A stretch of 64,000 nt of DNA. Source: Candidatus Rokuibacteriota bacterium (lineage in GTDB: Bacteria > Methylomirabilota > Methylomirabilia > Rokubacteriales > CSP1-6). The notes beneath the pieces are model-generated. The model did not search any database and was not told the origin of the DNA. It was given only the letters and a program-made list of their open reading frames with translations. This document shows, piece by piece, positions 45,140 through 54,257 of the stretch; the first letter of the stretch is position 1; each line of letters begins with the position of its first letter. The DNA is taken from the NCBI GenBank assembly GCA_016184125.1, contig JACPDG010000052.1, forward strand, positions 1-64,000, read 5' to 3'. The position numbers were made by a program, and so were the translations under genes.

Positions 45140-45343
45140 TCACGGCTCTCCATCCGTGCGGTCTCCGCTCCGTCGCGCGAGGAGCGGCAGCGTGACGATC
45201 GTGGCCAGGAAGAACACCCAGACGGAGCCCCCCACCACCGCGAGCGGCGGCGCCTCCGCGAAGAGTCGCGCGAGCACGAAGAACGCCGCGGCGGCAGCCA
45301 GCGAGACGACCGGGGCGCGAAGACCCGCGAGAGAGCGCTTCAT
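45140..45343 (-). CDS. small membrane protein
   Basis: 67 residues with two helices ([19 protein letters not shown] and [21 protein letters not shown]). The ATG overlaps the stop of the copper ATPase (ATGA), so it is translated with it. Similar small proteins after CopA-type ATPases may assist metal transfer, but no motif is visible. Confidence 0.65.
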
Positions 45344-47667
45344 GCGCCCGCCTCCCATCGCGCCGGATCGCTGAACGCCGGCCGGAACCCCTTCAGCAGG
45401 AGCGTGTTCAAGGTCACGGAGAGCGAGCTCACCGCCATCAGGAGCGCGGCGAGCTCGGGGCTGACCACGAGGCGCCAGAAGGGATAGAGCAGGCCCGCGC
45501 CGGCCGGGATCGCGAGCGTGTTGTACGCGAAGGCCCAGAAGAGGTTCTGCTTGACCTTGCGCATCGTGGCGCGCGCGACCTCGAGCGCGACGACCACGTC
45601 GCGGAGGTCGTCCTTCAGCAGGATGACGTGGCCCGTCTCCTTCGCCACGTCGGTGCCGGAGCCGATCGCGATCCCGACCTCGGCCTGGGCCAGCGCGGGC
45701 GCGTCGTTGATGCCGTCGCCGACCATCGCGACGCGCCGTCCCTCGCCCTGCAGGCGCGCGACCTCGGCCGCCTTCGCCTCGGGGAGCACCTCGGCGAGGG
45801 CATGGTCGATGCCGACGGCGCGCGCGATCGCGTCCGCGGTCCGCCGGTTGTCCCCGGTGAGCATCAACGTGGACAGACCCATTCGGTGGAGCGCGGCGAC
45901 CGTCTCGCGCGCGAACGGCTTCAGCGTGTCGGCGCACGCGACGATGCCGGCGAGACGATCGTCGACCGCAAGGAGCATCGCGGTCTTGCCCTCGGACTCG
46001 AGCGCGCGGAGCCGCGGCTCCTCGCCGGAGGCGTCGATGCCGCGAAGCGCCATCAAGCGCCGCGTGCCGAGCAGGAGCTTGCGCCCCTGCCACGCCGCCT
46101 CGACGCCGTGCCCGGGGATGGCCTCGAACGAGTCGGGGCGCTCGACGGCCAGGCCCTCGGCCCGCGCCGCCCGGACGATGGCCTCGCCGAGCGGATGCTC
46201 GGAGGCCACCTCGGCGACCGCGGCCCAGCCGAGCACCTGCTCGCGCCGGATGCCGGCGACCGTCAGCACCTCCGTGACAGAGGGCTCGCCGCGCGTGAGC
46301 GTCCCGGTCTTGTCGAAGACGATCGTGTCGAGCTTCGTCGTGGCCTCGATCGCGTCGGCGCCCTTGAAGAGCACGCCGTGCTGGGCGCCCTTGCCCGTGC
46401 CCGCCATCATCGCGCTCGGCGTCGCCATCCCGACGGCGCAGGGACACGAGATCACGAGCACGGTGATCGAGAGCAGGAGCGCGAAGCCGAAGACGCCGAT
46501 CGCGCCCAGCGTGCCGGGCGAGAGGATGAACGACGAGGCCGGATCGAAGAAGACGCGGTAGCCGACGAGGAACCAGAACACGAACACGGCGAGCGCGAGG
46601 GCGTGCACGCCGAGGATGAAGTGCCCCGCGACCCAGTCCGCCAGGCGCTGGATCGGCGCTTTCGACGCCTGCGCGTCCTCGACGAACCGGATGATCTGCG
46701 CGAGCGCCGTCTCGCTGCCCACGCGCGTGGCGCGGAAGCGGAAGGCGCCGGTCTTCACGAGCGTGCCACCCATCACCGTGGCGCCCGCCTGCTTCTCGAC
46801 GGGGAAGCTCTCGCCGGTGAGCATGGACTCGTCGACCGCCGAGTAGCCGTCCAGGACCTCGCCGTCGACCGGGATGCGCTCGCCGGGCCGCACGAGGACG
46901 ACGTCGCCGGCCCGGACCTCGTCCGCCGGGACTTCACGCTCCTCGCCGTCGCGGACGATGCGCGCCAGCGCCGGCTTGAGCGACAGGAGCTTCCGGATGG
47001 CCTCCGACGTGCGCCCGCGCGTCAGCGCCTCCAGGTACTTCCCGAGGATGATGAAGGCCGTCAAGAGCGCCGCCGACTCGAAGAAGATCGCGCGCTCGCC
47101 GCCGAACCCGGCGTCCGGGAACAGCGTGTTGAGCACACCGATCAGGTAGGCGGCGCCGATCCCCGTCGCGTAGAGCAGGTTCATGTCCGTGACGCCGCGG
47201 CGCAGCCCGCGCGCGCTCTGCACGAAGAACTGCCAGCCGGCGCCGAGCACGACCGGCGTGGTCAGGAGCAGCAGCACGAGCGGCCGGCCGAGCGCCTCCG
47301 GCACGACGTCGCGCAGCACCGCGAAGTCGCGGAAGGTGCCGGCCATGATCAGCATCGAGAGCGGCCAGGCGACGAGCATCCACCGCCGCTGGCGCGCGGT
47401 CTCGGCCTGCCTCAGGGCCTGCTCGCGGTCGAGCGCCGCCTGCCCCTCGAGCTTGTCCTCGGCGGTGTATCCGAGGTCAGCGACCGCCTCCTTGATCCGA
47501 GCCGGGCCGACGCGCGCAGGATCGAACGCGACGCGCGCGAGCCCGGGCTCGAGGCTGACCGTGACCTGACCGATGCCGTCGAGGAGACCGATCGCCTCCT
47601 CGACGCGCGAGGTGCAGCTGGCGCAGTGCATGCCGCTGATGCGGAACGTCTGGTGCTCGACCGCCAT
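45340..47667 (-). CDS. copA: P1B-type copper ATPase with N-terminal HMA domain
   Basis: 775 residues. An N-terminal HMA domain carries the GMHCASC copper site. The core has TGES in [29 protein letters not shown] with the membrane CPC triad, [27 protein letters not shown] and [12 protein letters not shown]. The last helix has [14 protein letters not shown], as in Cu(I) pumps. It differs from the first ATPase (682) by having the HMA domain and more typical text, so the two may do different jobs, such as efflux and cuproenzyme loading. It precedes the ccm genes in the same direction. Confidence 0.94.
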
Positions 47668-48243: not shown

Positions 48244-48702
48244 CTATCCCTGAGTGCCGGGAGCGGCGTGATCCATCACGTGACCCGAGGGGCTGATGTG
48301 CAGCATGCGGACGGCACCGCTCGCATCGCGAAGCTCCGCGGTCCACATCGCCATGTGCATGCCGGTGAGTGGCTCGACCTTCACGAACGTGAGGTTGTGC
48401 TCGCCCGCGTAGGCGGTCGCTATCTTTTCGGCGTCCTCCTGCTTCATCTGGGTCGACTGTGCGCCCGCCGCGTCGCCGTGGCAGTCGGTGCCCGCGCCCT
48501 GCTGGCCGTCACCGCCCATCATGCCGCCCATGCCACCCATCATGCCGCCGCCCATCATCCCGCCGCCCATCATGCTGCCCATCCCGCCCATCGTGCCGCC
48601 GCCCATCCCGCCCGTCATCCCTCCGCCCATCTGGGCGAAGGCGACGCCGGCGACGAGGACGAGCGCCGCGAGGGGCAGCGCCACTGTCAGGACTCGTTTC
48701 AT
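48244..48702 (-). CDS. secreted Met/Gly-rich protein with PepSY-like C-terminal domain
   Basis: 152 residues. A signal peptide (VLTVALPLAALVLVAGVAFA) is followed by about 50 residues of Met/Gly repeats (GGMMGGGMMGGM type), a low-affinity Cu(I)-binding composition. The C-terminal domain (EKIATAYAGEHNLTFVKVE to ISPSGHVMDH) resembles a PepSY-like fold. It is exported and probably buffers periplasmic copper. It has its own sigma-54 promoter with paired sites 40 bp apart. Confidence 0.82.
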   Translation of the reverse strand: MKRVLTVALPLAALVLVAGVAFAQMGGGMTGGMGGGTMGGMGSMMGGGMMGGGMMGGMGGMMGGDGQQGAGTDCHGDAAGAQSTQMKQEDAEKIATAYAGEHNLTFVKVEPLTGMHMAMWTAELRDASGAVRMLHISPSGHVMDHAAPGTQG

Positions 48703-48888: not shown

Positions 48889-49941
48889 GGTCGCTGCTTC
48901 CGATTGACGCGACGATGTCGTCTCGGCGAGCGCGTAGACGCGGTGGAGCCCGGAGAATCCCTTGAGGCGGCAGAAGCCGAGGGCGCGGACTGGAATTCCG
49001 ACGCGCTCGCTCTCCTGCGCCGCTTCCTCGTCGAGGAGTACACGGCTCTCCGAGGGCAGGCGGGGCGTTTCGACGTCGCCGTCGACCTGCACGAGATGCT
49101 CCTCGGTGAGCGCGTCGAGACGGAAGGCCTTGTTGAGGACGGTGCCGTGGCGCCCGCCCCGCGCATCGACGAGCAGCTCGCCGTAAGTGAGCGCCGCATG
49201 CATCGCGAGCGCAGGACCGGGATCCGCCGAGGAGCTCGCCAGGCTCGCGACGAGCGAGCGCGCCGTGTCGACCGCGTCCCGCACCGAGCGGAAGGTCATC
49301 AACCGCCCGTCACCGGTCCGCTCGGTGAACAGGAGACCCCGCGGCTCGGCCTCGGCCCGCGCCCGGTCTCTCAGCTCGAGCCGCGCGCGCATCGCGGTGG
49401 CGTCGCCATAGTGCGTCGCCAGGCGCGTCGAGCCGGCGAGATCCACGACAAGGACGGCCTCGGTGACCAGGTTCGCCGACGGGACGCCGCGGCGCCGGCG
49501 GCGGCGCACGAGACGGTGGACCGCGAACGCGGCCACGGCCGCGAAGACGAGCAGGTGGACGCTCCACTCGCGGTAGAAGGGACGCTCGCGCGCATGACCC
49601 ATCGACGACGTCGCCATCGGCGTGGCGGCGGTGGATATGCCGTCCGCGTCGCGCGGCGTCCGTGCGCTGCTCGCGCGCTCGCCGGACGAGCGCGCACCGG
49701 GGTCGGGAAGCGTGGCCTGAGGCGGGGCGGGAAGGGGTGTGCCGGCCTCGGCCGGCACCCCCGGCACCCCGCGCATCCGATCGGCGAAGCCCTGCGGCAT
49801 CGGCCGCATCCGTGCGCCGCTGCCGTCGCCGCCCATCATGCCGGACGCGCCGGGCCCCGCGCGTCCGGGGTCCGTCTGCGCCAGCACGAGACCGGGTGCG
49901 GCGACGAGCGCCGCCAGCATCACGAGGAGCCGTCGCGTCAC
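48847..49941 (-). CDS. membrane-bound class III nucleotide cyclase
   Basis: 364 residues with a GTG start overlapping the stop of the upstream selenoprotein (GTGA). A signal peptide (LLVMLAALVAAPGLVLA), a Met/Gly-rich periplasmic part (SGMMGGDGSG), a helix (WSVHLLVFAAVAAFAVHRL) and a C-terminal cyclase domain follow. The cyclase shows VVDLAGSTRLATHYGD with the first metal Asp, ERTGDGRLMTF, and GRHGTVLNKAFRLDAL. The Met-rich sensor part suggests that copper controls cyclic nucleotide production. Longer upstream codons in phase run through other genes and are rejected. Confidence 0.8.
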   Translation of the reverse strand: MTRRLLVMLAALVAAPGLVLAQTDPGRAGPGASGMMGGDGSGARMRPMPQGFADRMRGVPGVPAEAGTPLPAPPQATLPDPGARSSGERASSARTPRDADGISTAATPMATSSMGHARERPFYREWSVHLLVFAAVAAFAVHRLVRRRRRRGVPSANLVTEAVLVVDLAGSTRLATHYGDATAMRARLELRDRARAEAEPRGLLFTERTGDGRLMTFRSVRDAVDTARSLVASLASSSADPGPALAMHAALTYGELLVDARGGRHGTVLNKAFRLDALTEEHLVQVDGDVETPRLPSESRVLLDEEAAQESERVGIPVRALGFCRLKGFSGLHRVYALAETTSSRQSEAATDRVSTALDQAVRS

Positions 49942-50420
49942 CGCGGGACCCAGTTGGACCGCACGAGGAGCCGGCGTTCGGGCGCTGCCGGGTCGTTCGT
50001 CCTGAGCGGGATCTCGAAGAGGTGCGCGCCGCCCATCCCCGCGTGCATCGTGAACGCGACCGAAAGGGAGGTCGACTGCCCGGGCCTGAGGGTCGTCAGA
50101 CCGACGACCGCCTCGGGCGGTCAGCAGCCCTCGAGGGCCTTCACCCGCGGCACGTCGCTGATCTTGAGCGTCCCGTCCCCCGCGTTCGTGATCGTGAAGC
50201 TGGCGCGCGTCGGCGTCTCGAACGCGAGGTTGCCGAGGTCGACCGTCTCGCGATCGACCACGAGCCGTGGCGTCCCCCCTTCGGCCTCGGGTGTCGGCCA
50301 CAGCCACCAGGCGCCGCCGGCGACGAGCACGACGACGGCGAGCGCGGCGAGCGCGCGTGAGCGCCACGGTGAGCGAGTCGGCTGGAGGCCGTTCCTGCGT
50401 CGCTTCCCCTTGTGTCCCAT
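49938..50420 (-). CDS. DUF1573-like secreted protein, predicted selenoprotein (Sec100)
   Basis: 160 residues if TGA at 50121-50123 is Sec. An anchor helix (ALAALAVVVLVAGGAWWLW) is followed by a beta-sandwich domain (PRLVVDRETVDLGNLAFE, ASFTITNAGDGTLKI). The redox-like motif is ALEGC-U-PPEAVVGL, where relatives have GCCPP, then MHAGMGGAHLFEIPLRTND to the stop at 49938. The UGA is followed by 11 nt and a perfect 7-bp hairpin with a GGUCU loop. The real stop overlaps the cyclase start (GTGA), which supports reading through the UGA. The vicinal Cys-Sec pair could bind soft metal or act as a thiol switch. Confidence 0.88.
50091..50123 (-). other. bacterial SECIS element with its UGA codon
   Basis: UGA (50121-50123), 11 nt, then GGTCGTC (50103-50109), loop GGTCT (50098-50102) and GACGACC (50091-50097). 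The stem is perfect. Spacing and loop equal those at 39578-39611. Confidence 0.88.
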
Positions 50421-50423
50421 TCG

Positions 50424-51083
50424 TCACCTCGTTGTCTGTTGCGTCGTGTCCGCGCGTCGCGAGCGCGCCACGATCACCTTCACCCAGTGGGAGAAGACGT
50501 CGTGCTCCGCGATGACGTCGAAGCCCGCCGCGCGGACGTTGTCGACGGTGCGGCGGTTGATGTGCGGTCCCATGATTCGGCTCATGACCGGGTCCAGCAC
50601 ATCGAACAGGCGCCCGAGGGCTCCGCGCGGGCGCACGTGCTCGAGGAGGACGAGACGGCCGGCGTCCTTGAGGACGCGGCGCACCTCGCGCAGGCCACGG
50701 ACCGGATCCGGGACCGTGCAGAAGACGCAGCTCCCGACCACCGCATCGAAGCTGCCGTCCCTGAATGCGAGGTCCTCGGCGTCGGTGGCGACGGCCCGGC
50801 GGACGACCGGCGCCCCACCTGCCGCACGGCGCAGGCGCTCCAGCATGCCCGGGCTCAGGTCGGTCGGGATGACGACTGCGCCGGGTGGGTGGTGCACGAG
50901 GTTCTTTCCGGTGCCCGCGCCGACCTCGAGGATGCGGCCGTTCGGGAGGCTCTCGAAGAGCTGCGTGCGGGCGGAGGCGAGGCCGAGCATCCGCTCCATC
51001 GGCGCCACCATCATGTCGTAGCGGCGCGCCTGGCGGTTCCAGCGCCGGATCATGGCTCGCGTCGTCTCGGGGAAGGTCGGCAT
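50424..51083 (-). CDS. class I SAM-dependent methyltransferase
   Basis: 219 residues with the SAM motif GRILEVGAGTGKNLVHHPPG and the acidic motif TDLSPGML. Further down come FDAVVGSCVFCTVPDP and LVLLEHVRP, as in UbiE/metal-metalloid methyltransferase-like proteins. The substrate cannot be told. It starts 3 bp after the CuA-like gene and ends 3 bp before the selenoprotein gene, so it is part of the copper-redox operon. Confidence 0.85.
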   Translation of the reverse strand: MPTFPETTRAMIRRWNRQARRYDMMVAPMERMLGLASARTQLFESLPNGRILEVGAGTGKNLVHHPPGAVVIPTDLSPGMLERLRRAAGGAPVVRRAVATDAEDLAFRDGSFDAVVGSCVFCTVPDPVRGLREVRRVLKDAGRLVLLEHVRPRGALGRLFDVLDPVMSRIMGPHINRRTVDNVRAAGFDVIAEHDVFSHWVKVIVARSRRADTTQQTTR

Positions 51084-51086
51084 CGC

Positions 51087-51488
51087 CTACGGCTCCACGA
51101 TGAGCGTGCCCATCAGCGCCATGTGGAGGGCGCTGCAGCGGACGCTGCAGTAGAAGGGGAACTCGCCGGTCTTGCCGGCGGTGAACTCCACGACCTTCGT
51201 GGTCCCGGTCTTGATCGCGCCGGCGTCGGCGCCGAAGTGGAGGAGCTGGAAGCCGTGCGTGACGTCCTCGGCGAGGATGCGCAGACGCACGCGCTGCCCC
51301 TGCTTCACGACGATGCGCGCCGGGCTGAAGCCGCCGCGCTCGACCGTGCGCGCAACGACGAAGACCTCGTCCGCGCGGGTGCCGGGGCCGCGCATCGCCT
51401 GGTAGGAGAAGACGGCGGCGGGGACGCCGGCCACGATGAGAAGGACGATGGCGACGGCCAGACGCTCCACGCGTTTCACGGCGCTCAT
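51087..51488 (-). CDS. CuA-like cupredoxin (Cox2/NosZ C-terminal type)
   Basis: 133 residues: an anchor helix (VAIVLLIVAGVPAAVFSY) and a cupredoxin with ligand loop CSVRCSALHMALMG. This has the C-x3-C-x3-H order of CuA centres in Cox2 and NosZ, with the Met one residue later than usual. An upstream His (DVTHGFQLLHFG) completes the set. It should be a periplasmic electron or copper carrier. It overlaps the upstream gene by four bases (ATGA). Confidence 0.85.
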   Translation of the reverse strand: MSAVKRVERLAVAIVLLIVAGVPAAVFSYQAMRGPGTRADEVFVVARTVERGGFSPARIVVKQGQRVRLRILAEDVTHGFQLLHFGADAGAIKTGTTKVVEFTAGKTGEFPFYCSVRCSALHMALMGTLIVEP

Positions 51489-53299
51489 CCGAAGTAGAGC
51501 GTGACGAATGCCCACGCGATCGCCACGAGCAGCAGGGTGAGCGGCAGCAGCGCACGGCGCCGGGCCCGCGGCTCGGCGATCACCTCCGCGACGATCGCGC
51601 GCGCGGCGCGCACCGAGCCCCAGAGCCCGGCGAGGACGAGGCCGAGCTGGAGCCAGGGCAGCGCGGCGACGGGCATCCACGTCCATGTGGTCTCGCGCGT
51701 CCCGAAGAGGTCCCAGCCCCAGCCGAGCGGGTCCGAGAGGACGCGCGGGACGTACGACAGGTTCGGCGCGACGACGGCGAGGGTGAACGCCATCCAGGCG
51801 CCGAGCGAGACGGGCAGCAGCGCGTACGCGTAGTCGACGAAGAGACGCGAGAGCTTGAAGCCGGGTGTCCGCGCGAGCGCCCGTGAAAGCCACGCCGTCC
51901 CCAGGTGGAGGGCGGGGAGCGCGACGAGCGTGACGCCGGCGAACAGCGCCGAGTACAGGGCGAAGTCCGTCGGGCGCTCGAAGTTCGCCCAGGACTTCAC
52001 GGTGCCCCACGGGCCGAGCTTGACGACCGAATGCGCCAGGGCGGTGCCGAGGAGCAGGAGCGTCAGCCAGGCCTCGTCCATGCGGCGGCCGCGCGAGACG
52101 CCAAGATCGGCCGCGAACGAGCGGACGCGGACGGCGACGTTGTCGTAGGGACAGGCCTTCACGCACTCCGTGCAGAGCAGGCAATAGGTGTTGCGCTGGA
52201 GCCCGCCGCCGGGGAACTGGAACGTCGGGCAGGGGTAGGCGTCGCCGCCGCGGAAGCAGGCCTTCTCGCGGCATCGCCGGCAGACGTCGAGGTCGCGCGC
52301 GCGCAGCTCGAGCGGCGAGACGTTCGCGTAGACCCCGACCAGGGCGCCGACGGGGCAGACGTAGCGGCAGAACGCCCGGCGGTCGAAGACGAGGTGGATC
52401 CCGAGCGCGGCCACGGCGAAGCCCGCGAGCAGGAGCGCGGTCACGAGCGGCCGCGTCGTGATGACGATGCCGAACAGCACCAGGAGGAACAGCGCCCCGA
52501 ACGCGGGCCAGATGTTCTGGAGCGCCTTCGGCCACGCGCGGCCGAGGCCGAAGCCCCGGACGCGGTGCTCGACGATCGCCCCGCGCGCGATCCACTCGGC
52601 GGGCGCGGGCAGCGGGCACATCGCGCACCAGAGGCGTCCGCCGAGCGGGATGAGGACGAGGACGAGCAGGCCCCACCACACGAGCCAGACGAAGATCGTC
52701 GAGAAGTTCGTCGCGCCGGTCGAGGTCCCGGCGAGGCCCGCGACGACGATGAGCGTGAACACCGCCAGGTTCGGCGCGACGAGCGCGAACTGGAGCGGCC
52801 GCCACGCCAGGAGCCAGCGAAGCGCGCGCGAGCGGGTCAGGTCCCACCGCCGCGTCGCGGCCAGGCCGCCGGCGGACGCGAGGAAGCCGACGGCGAGCGC
52901 CAGCGCGCCGGCGCCGAGCGGCCAGGGGTTCGGGCGCACGACGATCTCGCCGACCATGAACGGGTGCAGCGGCCCGCAGACGACCGAGCAGCGGTACCGG
53001 AGCTTGCCCGCATGCGCCGCCGGGACCGTCACGCGCGCCTCGCGTCCCGGGAGCACGGTCGTCTCGATCCCGGTGCCCTCGACCGCGAAGCCGTGCGTGA
53101 CGTCGCGGGAGCGGATCCGGAACGTCACGCGATCCCCGGCCTCCACGGTCAGGCGCGGCGGGTCGAAGGCGAACTTGCCCGCCATCAGCCGCACCTCGAC
53201 GTCGCGGCCGCCGCGCGGATGGACGAAGCCCGCCAGCGCGACGGACGCGACGCCGAGGGCGAGGAGGACGCCGGCGAGAGCCGCGACGCGGCGCTTCAC
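51485..53299 (-). CDS. fusion of a CuA-type cupredoxin with a NosR/NapH-like iron-sulfur membrane protein
   Basis: 604 residues. After a signal peptide, residues about 30-125 form a cupredoxin with a full CuA loop, CSVVCGPLHPFM. Residues about 130-600 are a polytopic membrane part with NosR/NapH/CcoG-like Cys motifs CAMCPLPAPAEW and CRYVCPVGALVG, then CRRCREKAC and CLLCTECVKACPYDN for 4Fe-4S clusters. It could move electrons between the quinone pool and periplasmic copper proteins such as the adjacent CuA protein. The fusion itself is what makes it unusual. Confidence 0.85.
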   Translation of the reverse strand: MKRRVAALAGVLLALGVASVALAGFVHPRGGRDVEVRLMAGKFAFDPPRLTVEAGDRVTFRIRSRDVTHGFAVEGTGIETTVLPGREARVTVPAAHAGKLRYRCSVVCGPLHPFMVGEIVVRPNPWPLGAGALALAVGFLASAGGLAATRRWDLTRSRALRWLLAWRPLQFALVAPNLAVFTLIVVAGLAGTSTGATNFSTIFVWLVWWGLLVLVLIPLGGRLWCAMCPLPAPAEWIARGAIVEHRVRGFGLGRAWPKALQNIWPAFGALFLLVLFGIVITTRPLVTALLLAGFAVAALGIHLVFDRRAFCRYVCPVGALVGVYANVSPLELRARDLDVCRRCREKACFRGGDAYPCPTFQFPGGGLQRNTYCLLCTECVKACPYDNVAVRVRSFAADLGVSRGRRMDEAWLTLLLLGTALAHSVVKLGPWGTVKSWANFERPTDFALYSALFAGVTLVALPALHLGTAWLSRALARTPGFKLSRLFVDYAYALLPVSLGAWMAFTLAVVAPNLSYVPRVLSDPLGWGWDLFGTRETTWTWMPVAALPWLQLGLVLAGLWGSVRAARAIVAEVIAEPRARRRALLPLTLLLVAIAWAFVTLYFG

Positions 53300-53300
53300 G

Positions 53301-54257
53301 CTACGGGTCCACCACCGCGATCGACGACGGCGCCTTGCCGGCCGCCACGGTGGCGACCACCGCGCGCTTCGCCGTCGAGATGACCGAGATCGTGTTGTCC
53401 TCCATGTTCGCGGTGTAGGCGAGGGCGCCGTCGCGGGAGAGGACCATCGTGTGCGGCATCTTGCCGACGGGGATCTGCGCGACCACGCGCCCGGCCGCGA
53501 GGTCGACGGCGAGGACCTTGTGGCCGACCTCGCTCGCGACCCAGAGCGTCCGGCCGTCGGGCGCCATCGCCATCCCGTGGGAGTTCAGCCCGAGGTCGAT
53601 GCGGGCGACGGGCTTGCGCGTCTGCGCGTCGACGACGGTCAGGTCGTTCGAGCCCGTGCTGCTCGCGTAGAACCGGCGGCCGTCGGGCGCGAACAGCGCG
53701 AGATGCGGCAGGAAGCCGACCTTCACGCGCTCGATCACGCGGCGCGCGGCCGCGTCGATCACGAAGATCCGGTGCGACTCGGCGCCACCGACCAGGACCG
53801 TCTTGCCGTCGGGGGACACGGAGGTGATGTGCGGCTCGGGTCCCGTCGGGATCCTCGCCTCCACGCGGTTCGTCGCCGTGCCGATCACCGCCACTTCCTG
53901 GGACGTCTCGAGACTCGCGTACACGCGCTGGCCGCCGGGCGCCATGGCGAGATGCGTCGGACGCAGACCGAGCGGGATCTTCGCGACCGTCCGGTCGGTG
54001 GCGAGATCGAGCACCCACACCTCGTCGGCGCCCGCCATCGTCACGTAGAGGCGCTTGCCGTCCGGCGTCGCGACGGCGAAGTGCGGGTCGGGCGCGGTGG
54101 GGATGGTGCGGAGCGGCTTGAGCGTCACCGCGTCGATGACCGCGAGGCTCTGGCCGCCGAGGTTCGTGACGTAGAGGCGCGCAGGCCCGCCGGCCGCCGG
54201 CGCCGACCCGAGCGCCAGGACCGCGAGCACGCCGAAGACGAGAGCTCTCGTTCTCAC
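53301..54257 (-). CDS. secreted YVTN-type beta-propeller protein
   Basis: 318 residues: signal peptide (ALVFGVLAVLALGSAPAA) and about seven repeats of the YncE-like type (PARLYVTNLGGQSLAVID, KRLYVTMAGADEVWVLDL). It is exported, probably to bind ligands or partners in the periplasm. It lies one base before the cupredoxin-FeS fusion gene in the same operon. A truncated relative lies at 16347-16577. Confidence 0.85.
   Translation of the reverse strand: MRTRALVFGVLAVLALGSAPAAGGPARLYVTNLGGQSLAVIDAVTLKPLRTIPTAPDPHFAVATPDGKRLYVTMAGADEVWVLDLATDRTVAKIPLGLRPTHLAMAPGGQRVYASLETSQEVAVIGTATNRVEARIPTGPEPHITSVSPDGKTVLVGGAESHRIFVIDAAARRVIERVKVGFLPHLALFAPDGRRFYASSTGSNDLTVVDAQTRKPVARIDLGLNSHGMAMAPDGRTLWVASEVGHKVLAVDLAAGRVVAQIPVGKMPHTMVLSRDGALAYTANMEDNTISVISTAKRAVVATVAAGKAPSSIAVVDP

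Follow-up and report, generated by a model that had tools for sequence, protein, structure and literature searches.

The window analysed here, 64,000 nt of contig JACPDG010000052.1 from Candidatus Rokuibacteriota, contains a small gene with an in-frame UGA among copper-related genes. Is this UGA read as selenocysteine (Sec), and what might such a protein do in this setting? The gene (49938-50420) has 160 codons plus a stop, with Sec as codon 100, as judged from translation with TGA read as Sec and from homologues that carry TGA. On rereading the sequence, the initial annotation had placed both the gene and its in-frame UGA (50121-50123) correctly; it left out the strand, which is the minus strand. 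Translation from 50420 to 49938 on that strand gives MGHKGKRRRNGLQPTRSPWRSRALAALAVVVLVAGGAWWLWPTPEAEGGTPRLVVDRETVDLGNLAFETPTRASFTITNAGDGTLKISDVPRVKALEGC-U-PPEAVVGLTTLRPGQSTSLSVAFTMHAGMGGAHLFEIPLRTNDPAAPERRLLVRSNWVPR-stop. The ATG start codon lies at 50420-50418, with GAGGTG four bases 5' of it, and the real stop, TGA 49940-49938, overlaps the GTG at 49941-49939 that starts the next ORF, the overlap that had been described earlier. Standard annotation would terminate such proteins at residue 99.

The Sec codon is located within the motif G-C-U-P-P. Matches to the protein were retrieved from 26 of 148 related genomes (E <= 1e-5), and the codon was TGA in all 22 genomes, the source genome included, in which GCUPP-family members cover the site. 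A contig scan of genomes found the nearest hosts in Candidatus Rokubacteria / Methylomirabilota and added Chloroflexota; one record, L092, bears the label Deltaproteobacteria. Three of the scanned loci (L110, L116 and L124) encode GCCPP with TGC, all others covering the site having TGA, and a sample of 251 Chloroflexota genomes supplied 13 further TGA carriers. UGA is thus found at this site in about 53 genomes in total, belonging to Methylomirabilota/Rokubacteria, Chloroflexota and one further lineage. The three Cys forms are Chloroflexota homologues and agree with the proposal that UGA stands in place of the second Cys of GCCPP; aligning the relatives, as had been suggested, gave these three together with the UGA-bearing members from about 53 genomes. 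In all complete relatives, homology extends beyond the UGA, as also proposed earlier, to the remainder of the domain. The predominance of Sec over Cys in the family is probably real, since the scan pattern FTMHxGMG is independent of the Sec codon. On the tree, the Cys forms require two to three separate changes. One of them, L124, groups with its Sec paralogue L126 from the same assembly and, read from its sequence, retains five hairpin pairs, as would be expected if Sec had given way to Cys only recently; these pairs are likely a fossil SECIS. No family homologues were found on plasmids, and the main contigs of two carrier genomes (G170 and G276) exceed 4 Mb. Near the contig end of G276 lies a second, frameshifted copy of its family gene (L154/L155, G276:C1 ~4125150-4125530), possibly an overlap of a circular contig.

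The hairpin following the UGA is exactly that claimed in the initial annotation: a perfect 7-bp stem (50109-50103 pairing with 50097-50091) closed by a GGUCU loop (50102-50098), together GGUCGUC-GGUCU-GACGACC on the minus strand (50091-50109), 11 nt past the UGA. Of all TGA triplets in the window, 1309 counting both strands, only the Sec UGA is followed by a perfect 7-bp hairpin with a 5-nt loop at +11; a looser hairpin rule is satisfied by 29. Across 31 sequences, 94.9% of the cells in the 7-bp helix are paired, and both sides have changed in six of the seven pairs. This set contains 12 compensatory cells, and none of 500 shuffles attained the observed values. A second set of 34 more diverse sequences contains 32 compensatory cells, and its covariation score is 0.447, compared with 0.209 when shuffled and at most 0.258 for slid structures (0/500 shuffles). 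Because the sequences share kinship, p-values are indicative only. The stem GUCGUC/GACGAC is replaced in relatives by ACCAUC/GAUGGU, GUCGUA/UACGAC, GUCGUG/CACGAC or AUCGUC/GACGAU, and some of these variants alter residues (VV to TI or IV; TT to MV or TI) with pairing preserved. Synonymous choice is constrained as well: stem codons are GTC in 34 of 35 and 37 of 39 cases and ACG in 36 of 36, compared with 37% and 43% over the remainder of these genes, and the loop glycine is encoded by GGT or GGG, never by GGC, the commonest Gly codon elsewhere. The hairpin lies just 3' of the UGA with a G opening its small apical loop, which is the criterion for a SECIS, and its spacing and loop G agree with published bacterial SECIS elements (PMC1088965, PMC10778597). 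RNAalifold added two outer C-G pairs (columns 4-44 and 5-43), which barely vary and therefore carry no proof. An Rfam scan of the window at the gathering threshold gave zero matches of any family, a result that is neutral regarding the hairpin. By comparative sequence evidence, the hairpin (50109-50091) almost certainly directs Sec decoding at UGA 50123-50121.

The source genome (4.09 Mb in 121 contigs, 93% complete) encodes all four of selA, selB, selC and selD, the genes named earlier as a check on the selenoprotein. SelA (596 bits), SelB (367 bits), SelD (338 bits) and tRNA-Sec (70 bits; anticodon TCA by ARAGORN) each score above their curated cut-offs, and selD itself carries one in-frame TGA. 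Sec machinery is also present in most carriers of the family. As a test, co-occurrence with SelA has low power, because 108 of the 148 relatives and 201 of the 251 Chloroflexota genomes have SelA. The Sec carriers without SelA (G023, G033, G086, G193, G159, G164 and G166) may be incomplete assemblies. If the UGA were instead a genuine stop, or the result of a sequencing error, the product would be a truncated protein or a pseudogene. This reading is extremely improbable given the covarying hairpin and the Sec machinery of most carriers, and the conservation of TGA in so many genomes, with the conserved frame intact downstream, excludes a sequencing error or pseudogene at this position. Sec machinery, conserved UGA with Cys alternates, SECIS covariation and codon constraint strongly support the selenoprotein that had been proposed, and UGA 50123-50121 is almost certainly decoded as Sec.

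The DUF1573-like domain of the earlier description was recovered by two Pfam profiles above their cut-offs: DUF1573 (PF07610) at 32.5 bits, against a gathering cut-off of 26.1, and the HYDIN/VesB Ig-like profile (PF22544) at 36.9 bits, against 25.5 and above the PF07610 score. An AlphaFold2 model built with 36 family sequences (mean pLDDT 90, and 95-99 across most of residues 51-158) consists of an N-terminal helix, residues 18-39 (50304-50369, minus strand), predicted to be a membrane anchor, followed by an Ig-like sandwich. The latter corresponds to the Ig-like (ASH/PapD-like, DUF1573/HYDIN) domain at residues 51-158 (49947-50270, minus strand), assigned from Pfam, AlphaFold2 and Foldseek, which matched ASH/PapD-like domains (HYDIN, OCRL, CEP192), VesB/VesC and the Porphyromonas protein 2qsv. 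Residues G98, C99, C/U100, P101, P102, M125, G128, M129, G131, H133 and F135 are invariant among the 36 sequences, and H126 is at least 90% conserved, being replaced by Pro in L041. On this conservation, the TMHxGMGGxH segment at residues 124-133 (50022-50051, minus strand) holds candidate Met/His metal ligands. The predicted product is anchored in the membrane and exposes an Ig-like domain outside the cytoplasm; its sequence contains the vicinal Cys99-Sec100 pair and the conserved Met/His segment. It had been called secreted, of which the extracytoplasmic location stands, the predicted helix making membrane-anchored the better description. A thioredoxin-fold selenoprotein was ruled out by the Ig/ASH fold of the model and by the CU motif, with no UxxC or CxxU.

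Gene names in the window come from matches or from reading of the sequence. The order on the minus strand is NtrC regulator, YVTN propeller, CuA-cupredoxin/NapH-like fusion, cupredoxin, methyltransferase, selenoprotein, a cyclase-like ORF with a Met-rich start, a Met-rich protein, CopA and CcmF/ResA/CcmH-like genes. Immediately upstream of the selenoprotein gene lies a class I methyltransferase (50424-51083, minus strand; Pfam Methyltransf_11) that is kept in Rokubacteria. It is preceded by a cupredoxin with the CuA-like motif CSVRCSALHMALM (51087-51488, minus strand; PF13473, PF00116 and motif) and by a CuA-type cupredoxin (CSVVCGPLHPFM) fused to a NapH-like polyferredoxin membrane protein (51485-53299, minus strand); this neighbour is retained in Rokubacteria, and in Chloroflexota it occurs in unfused form. 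A YVTN beta-propeller protein (53301-54257, minus strand) was assigned to the same cluster through matches and cluster comparison, and a CopA-type P-ATPase with an HMA domain (45340-47667, minus strand) was identified by Pfam. The propeller, which adjoins the fusion gene, is seven-bladed with His in most blades, and the two together weakly resemble a split form of the lactonase-type nitrous-oxide reductase NF052460 (102 bits; cut-off 700). The small Met-rich protein encoded between the selenoprotein and CopA (48244-48702, minus strand) has 21 Met in 153 residues and a signal-like start, and matched no Pfam family above cut-off.

Much of this gene order is also present in L072, L074, L075, L076, L078 and L092. 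In Chloroflexota, for example on a 4.4 Mb contig of G170, the order is PCYCGC protein, CuA-like cupredoxin, NapH-like protein, CuA-like cupredoxin-cytochrome c and selenoprotein. Proteins of the PCYCGC type (PF13798, OS_HP4-like) recur beside Chloroflexota GCU genes (L101, L102, L110, L113, L116, L120, L156-L161 and others), and all those examined were Cys-coded. Of 52 family loci, 27 have homologues of the CuA cupredoxin, NapH-like protein or CopA nearby, as does 1 of 20 control stretches from seven carrier genomes; the comparison is rough, because the controls are not of the same length as the loci and the loci are non-independent. CopA lies near 14 of the 52 loci. About half of the loci have none of the CuA, NapH and CopA types nearby, some of these being short contigs. 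The same kinds of neighbours occur in Rokubacteria and Chloroflexota; the copper setting noted at the outset is supported and recurs over two phyla.

What, then, might the protein do? Work on copper is indicated by the invariant Met, Met and His and the near-invariant His, together with the recurrent CuA cupredoxin, NapH-like, cytochrome c, PCYCGC and CopA neighbours. CuA assembly involves both cysteine reduction, carried out by Sco in Thermus and TlpA in Bradyrhizobium, and Cu(I) delivery by PCuAC, with its motif H(M)X10MX21HXM (PMC6696091), and the residues of the selenoprotein would suit either job. We propose that, with the UGA read as Sec by SelA/SelB/SelC/SelD via hairpin 50109-50091, the membrane-anchored Ig-like domain would display Cys99-Sec100 and the Met/His residues outside the membrane. 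There the protein would serve the adjacent CuA-cupredoxin/NapH electron-transfer module, with the Cys-Sec pair, probably joined by M125, H126, M129 and H133, binding Cu(I) and/or reducing CuA cysteines, and extracytoplasmic copper sites would be built or maintained as the outcome. Taken as a whole, from Sec decoding through the anchored Ig domain to service of the CuA module, we regard this statement as evenly poised between right and wrong. The copper or CuA-maturation role in itself, drawn from residues and neighbours, falls slightly short of an even chance. A selenolate chaperone or assembly factor for CuA, in which the Cys-Sec pair on an Ig scaffold with Met/His acts as Cu(I) ligand or CuA-cysteine reductant, is a tentative proposal. 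The source genome also encodes PCuAC and two Sco proteins; no copper chaperone is therefore missing, which counts against the role. The idea of a replacement for Sco or PCuAC is weakened by the presence of both, and the selenoprotein would then be dedicated to the CuA/NapH module. If the proposal is true, Rokubacteria and Chloroflexota would have a direct tie between selenium biology and the maturation of copper sites, the recurrent CuA-cupredoxin setting connecting selenium use with copper-site assembly.

Alternatively, the protein could be a pure thiol-redox selenoprotein that binds no copper, its Cys99-Sec100 pair alternating with a vicinal selenenylsulfide. A DsbD/CcdA-type membrane reductase would feed this cycle, which would keep extracytoplasmic cysteines, those of CuA and of cytochrome c biogenesis, in the reduced state. 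Neighbouring genes of the DsbD_2, CcmE, CcmF, ResA-type and cytochrome c kinds, like the vicinal Cys-Sec pair itself, are consistent with this, and redox activity is thought typical of most selenoproteins (PMC13188914). However, the fold is not that of thioredoxin by Foldseek, Sec adjoins Cys rather than forming UxxC or CxxU, and the invariant Met/Met/His segment would need some other reason, so that we consider a purely redox function rather unlikely. Sequestration or sensing of a metal or metalloid (Cu, Hg, Ag or As) at the membrane, which would protect the cupredoxin module instead of building it, would fit the CopA, Met-rich protein and methyltransferase genes of the cluster, and other CU-motif selenoproteins have been discussed as metal-related (PMC13188914). 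Such a function is improbable, as the recurrent partners are electron-transfer and PCYCGC proteins, not mer or ars genes.

Several known systems resemble the window protein in part. PCuAC and Sco are alike in working only: they are extracytoplasmic, linked to CuA and dependent on Met/His (PCuAC) or Cys (Sco) residues, whereas the window protein matches neither PF04314 nor PF02630, has another motif and fold and, with its conserved MHxxMxxxH in place of H(M)X10MX21HXM, does not belong to PCuAC. The CU-motif selenoproteins (SaoC, MbdU, the Csac_0668 family, SaoL and HgcA) share the vicinal Cys-Sec pair, and several are predicted to handle metals (PMC13188914), but they are different families, and their NCBIfam models gave no match to the window protein. 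The DUF1573 and HYDIN-VesB ASH (PapD-like) Ig domains, such as PDB 2qsv, have fold and Pfam matches in common with it. These matches have no known Cys-Sec active site, in contrast to the membrane-anchored single domain described here, with its invariant Cys-Sec and Met/His residues.

DUF1573 selenoproteins with the motif UGC are already on record (PMC9312934, PMC13188914), and OS_HP2, with the motif UxC, has been assigned to pfam07610 (PMC2398784). OS_HP2 (NF041425) resembles the GCU group in its broad Ig/DUF1573 domain, in Sec lying in the corresponding loop and in the bacterial SECIS route. However, Sec in OS_HP2 replaces the first Cys of CGC, whereas in the GCU family it comes after the second Cys, an offset of three residues in the alignment, and the motifs GCUPP and TMHxGMGGxH are restricted to the GCU group. 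Against the NF041425 cut-off of 100 bits, the window protein scored 20.5, its relatives 20-33 and the UGC-type L052 71; membership of OS_HP2 was rejected on this score and on the position of Sec (GCUPP, with no UGC or UxC). No genome of the phylum sample exceeded the NF041425 cut-off. The UGC-type DUF1573 ORF (L052, 1490-1800 on the minus strand of G067:C69; TTSUGCT) lies in the same genome as the GCU-type L042. An in-frame TGA also occurs in a further DUF1573/ASH-like ORF (L061, 1430-1850 of G086:C34; ...RIQRIVPT-U-DCTVATLEV...), whose arrangement is of the UxC type; no NCBIfam model matched its scanned frame. A 2026 review treats differing Sec positions within one architecture as distinct subfamilies (PMC13188914). 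None of its 119 entries is of the GCU/GCUPP type, and a groundwater-MAG survey cited there might include the group. The new type of selenoprotein announced in the initial annotation is thus distinct from OS_HP2 and the DUF1573 UGC type and absent from the published lists consulted, and the GCU group is apparently a new, uncatalogued Sec subfamily of the known DUF1573-type selenoproteins, one that adds a widespread Sec position and a subfamily on a non-thioredoxin scaffold.
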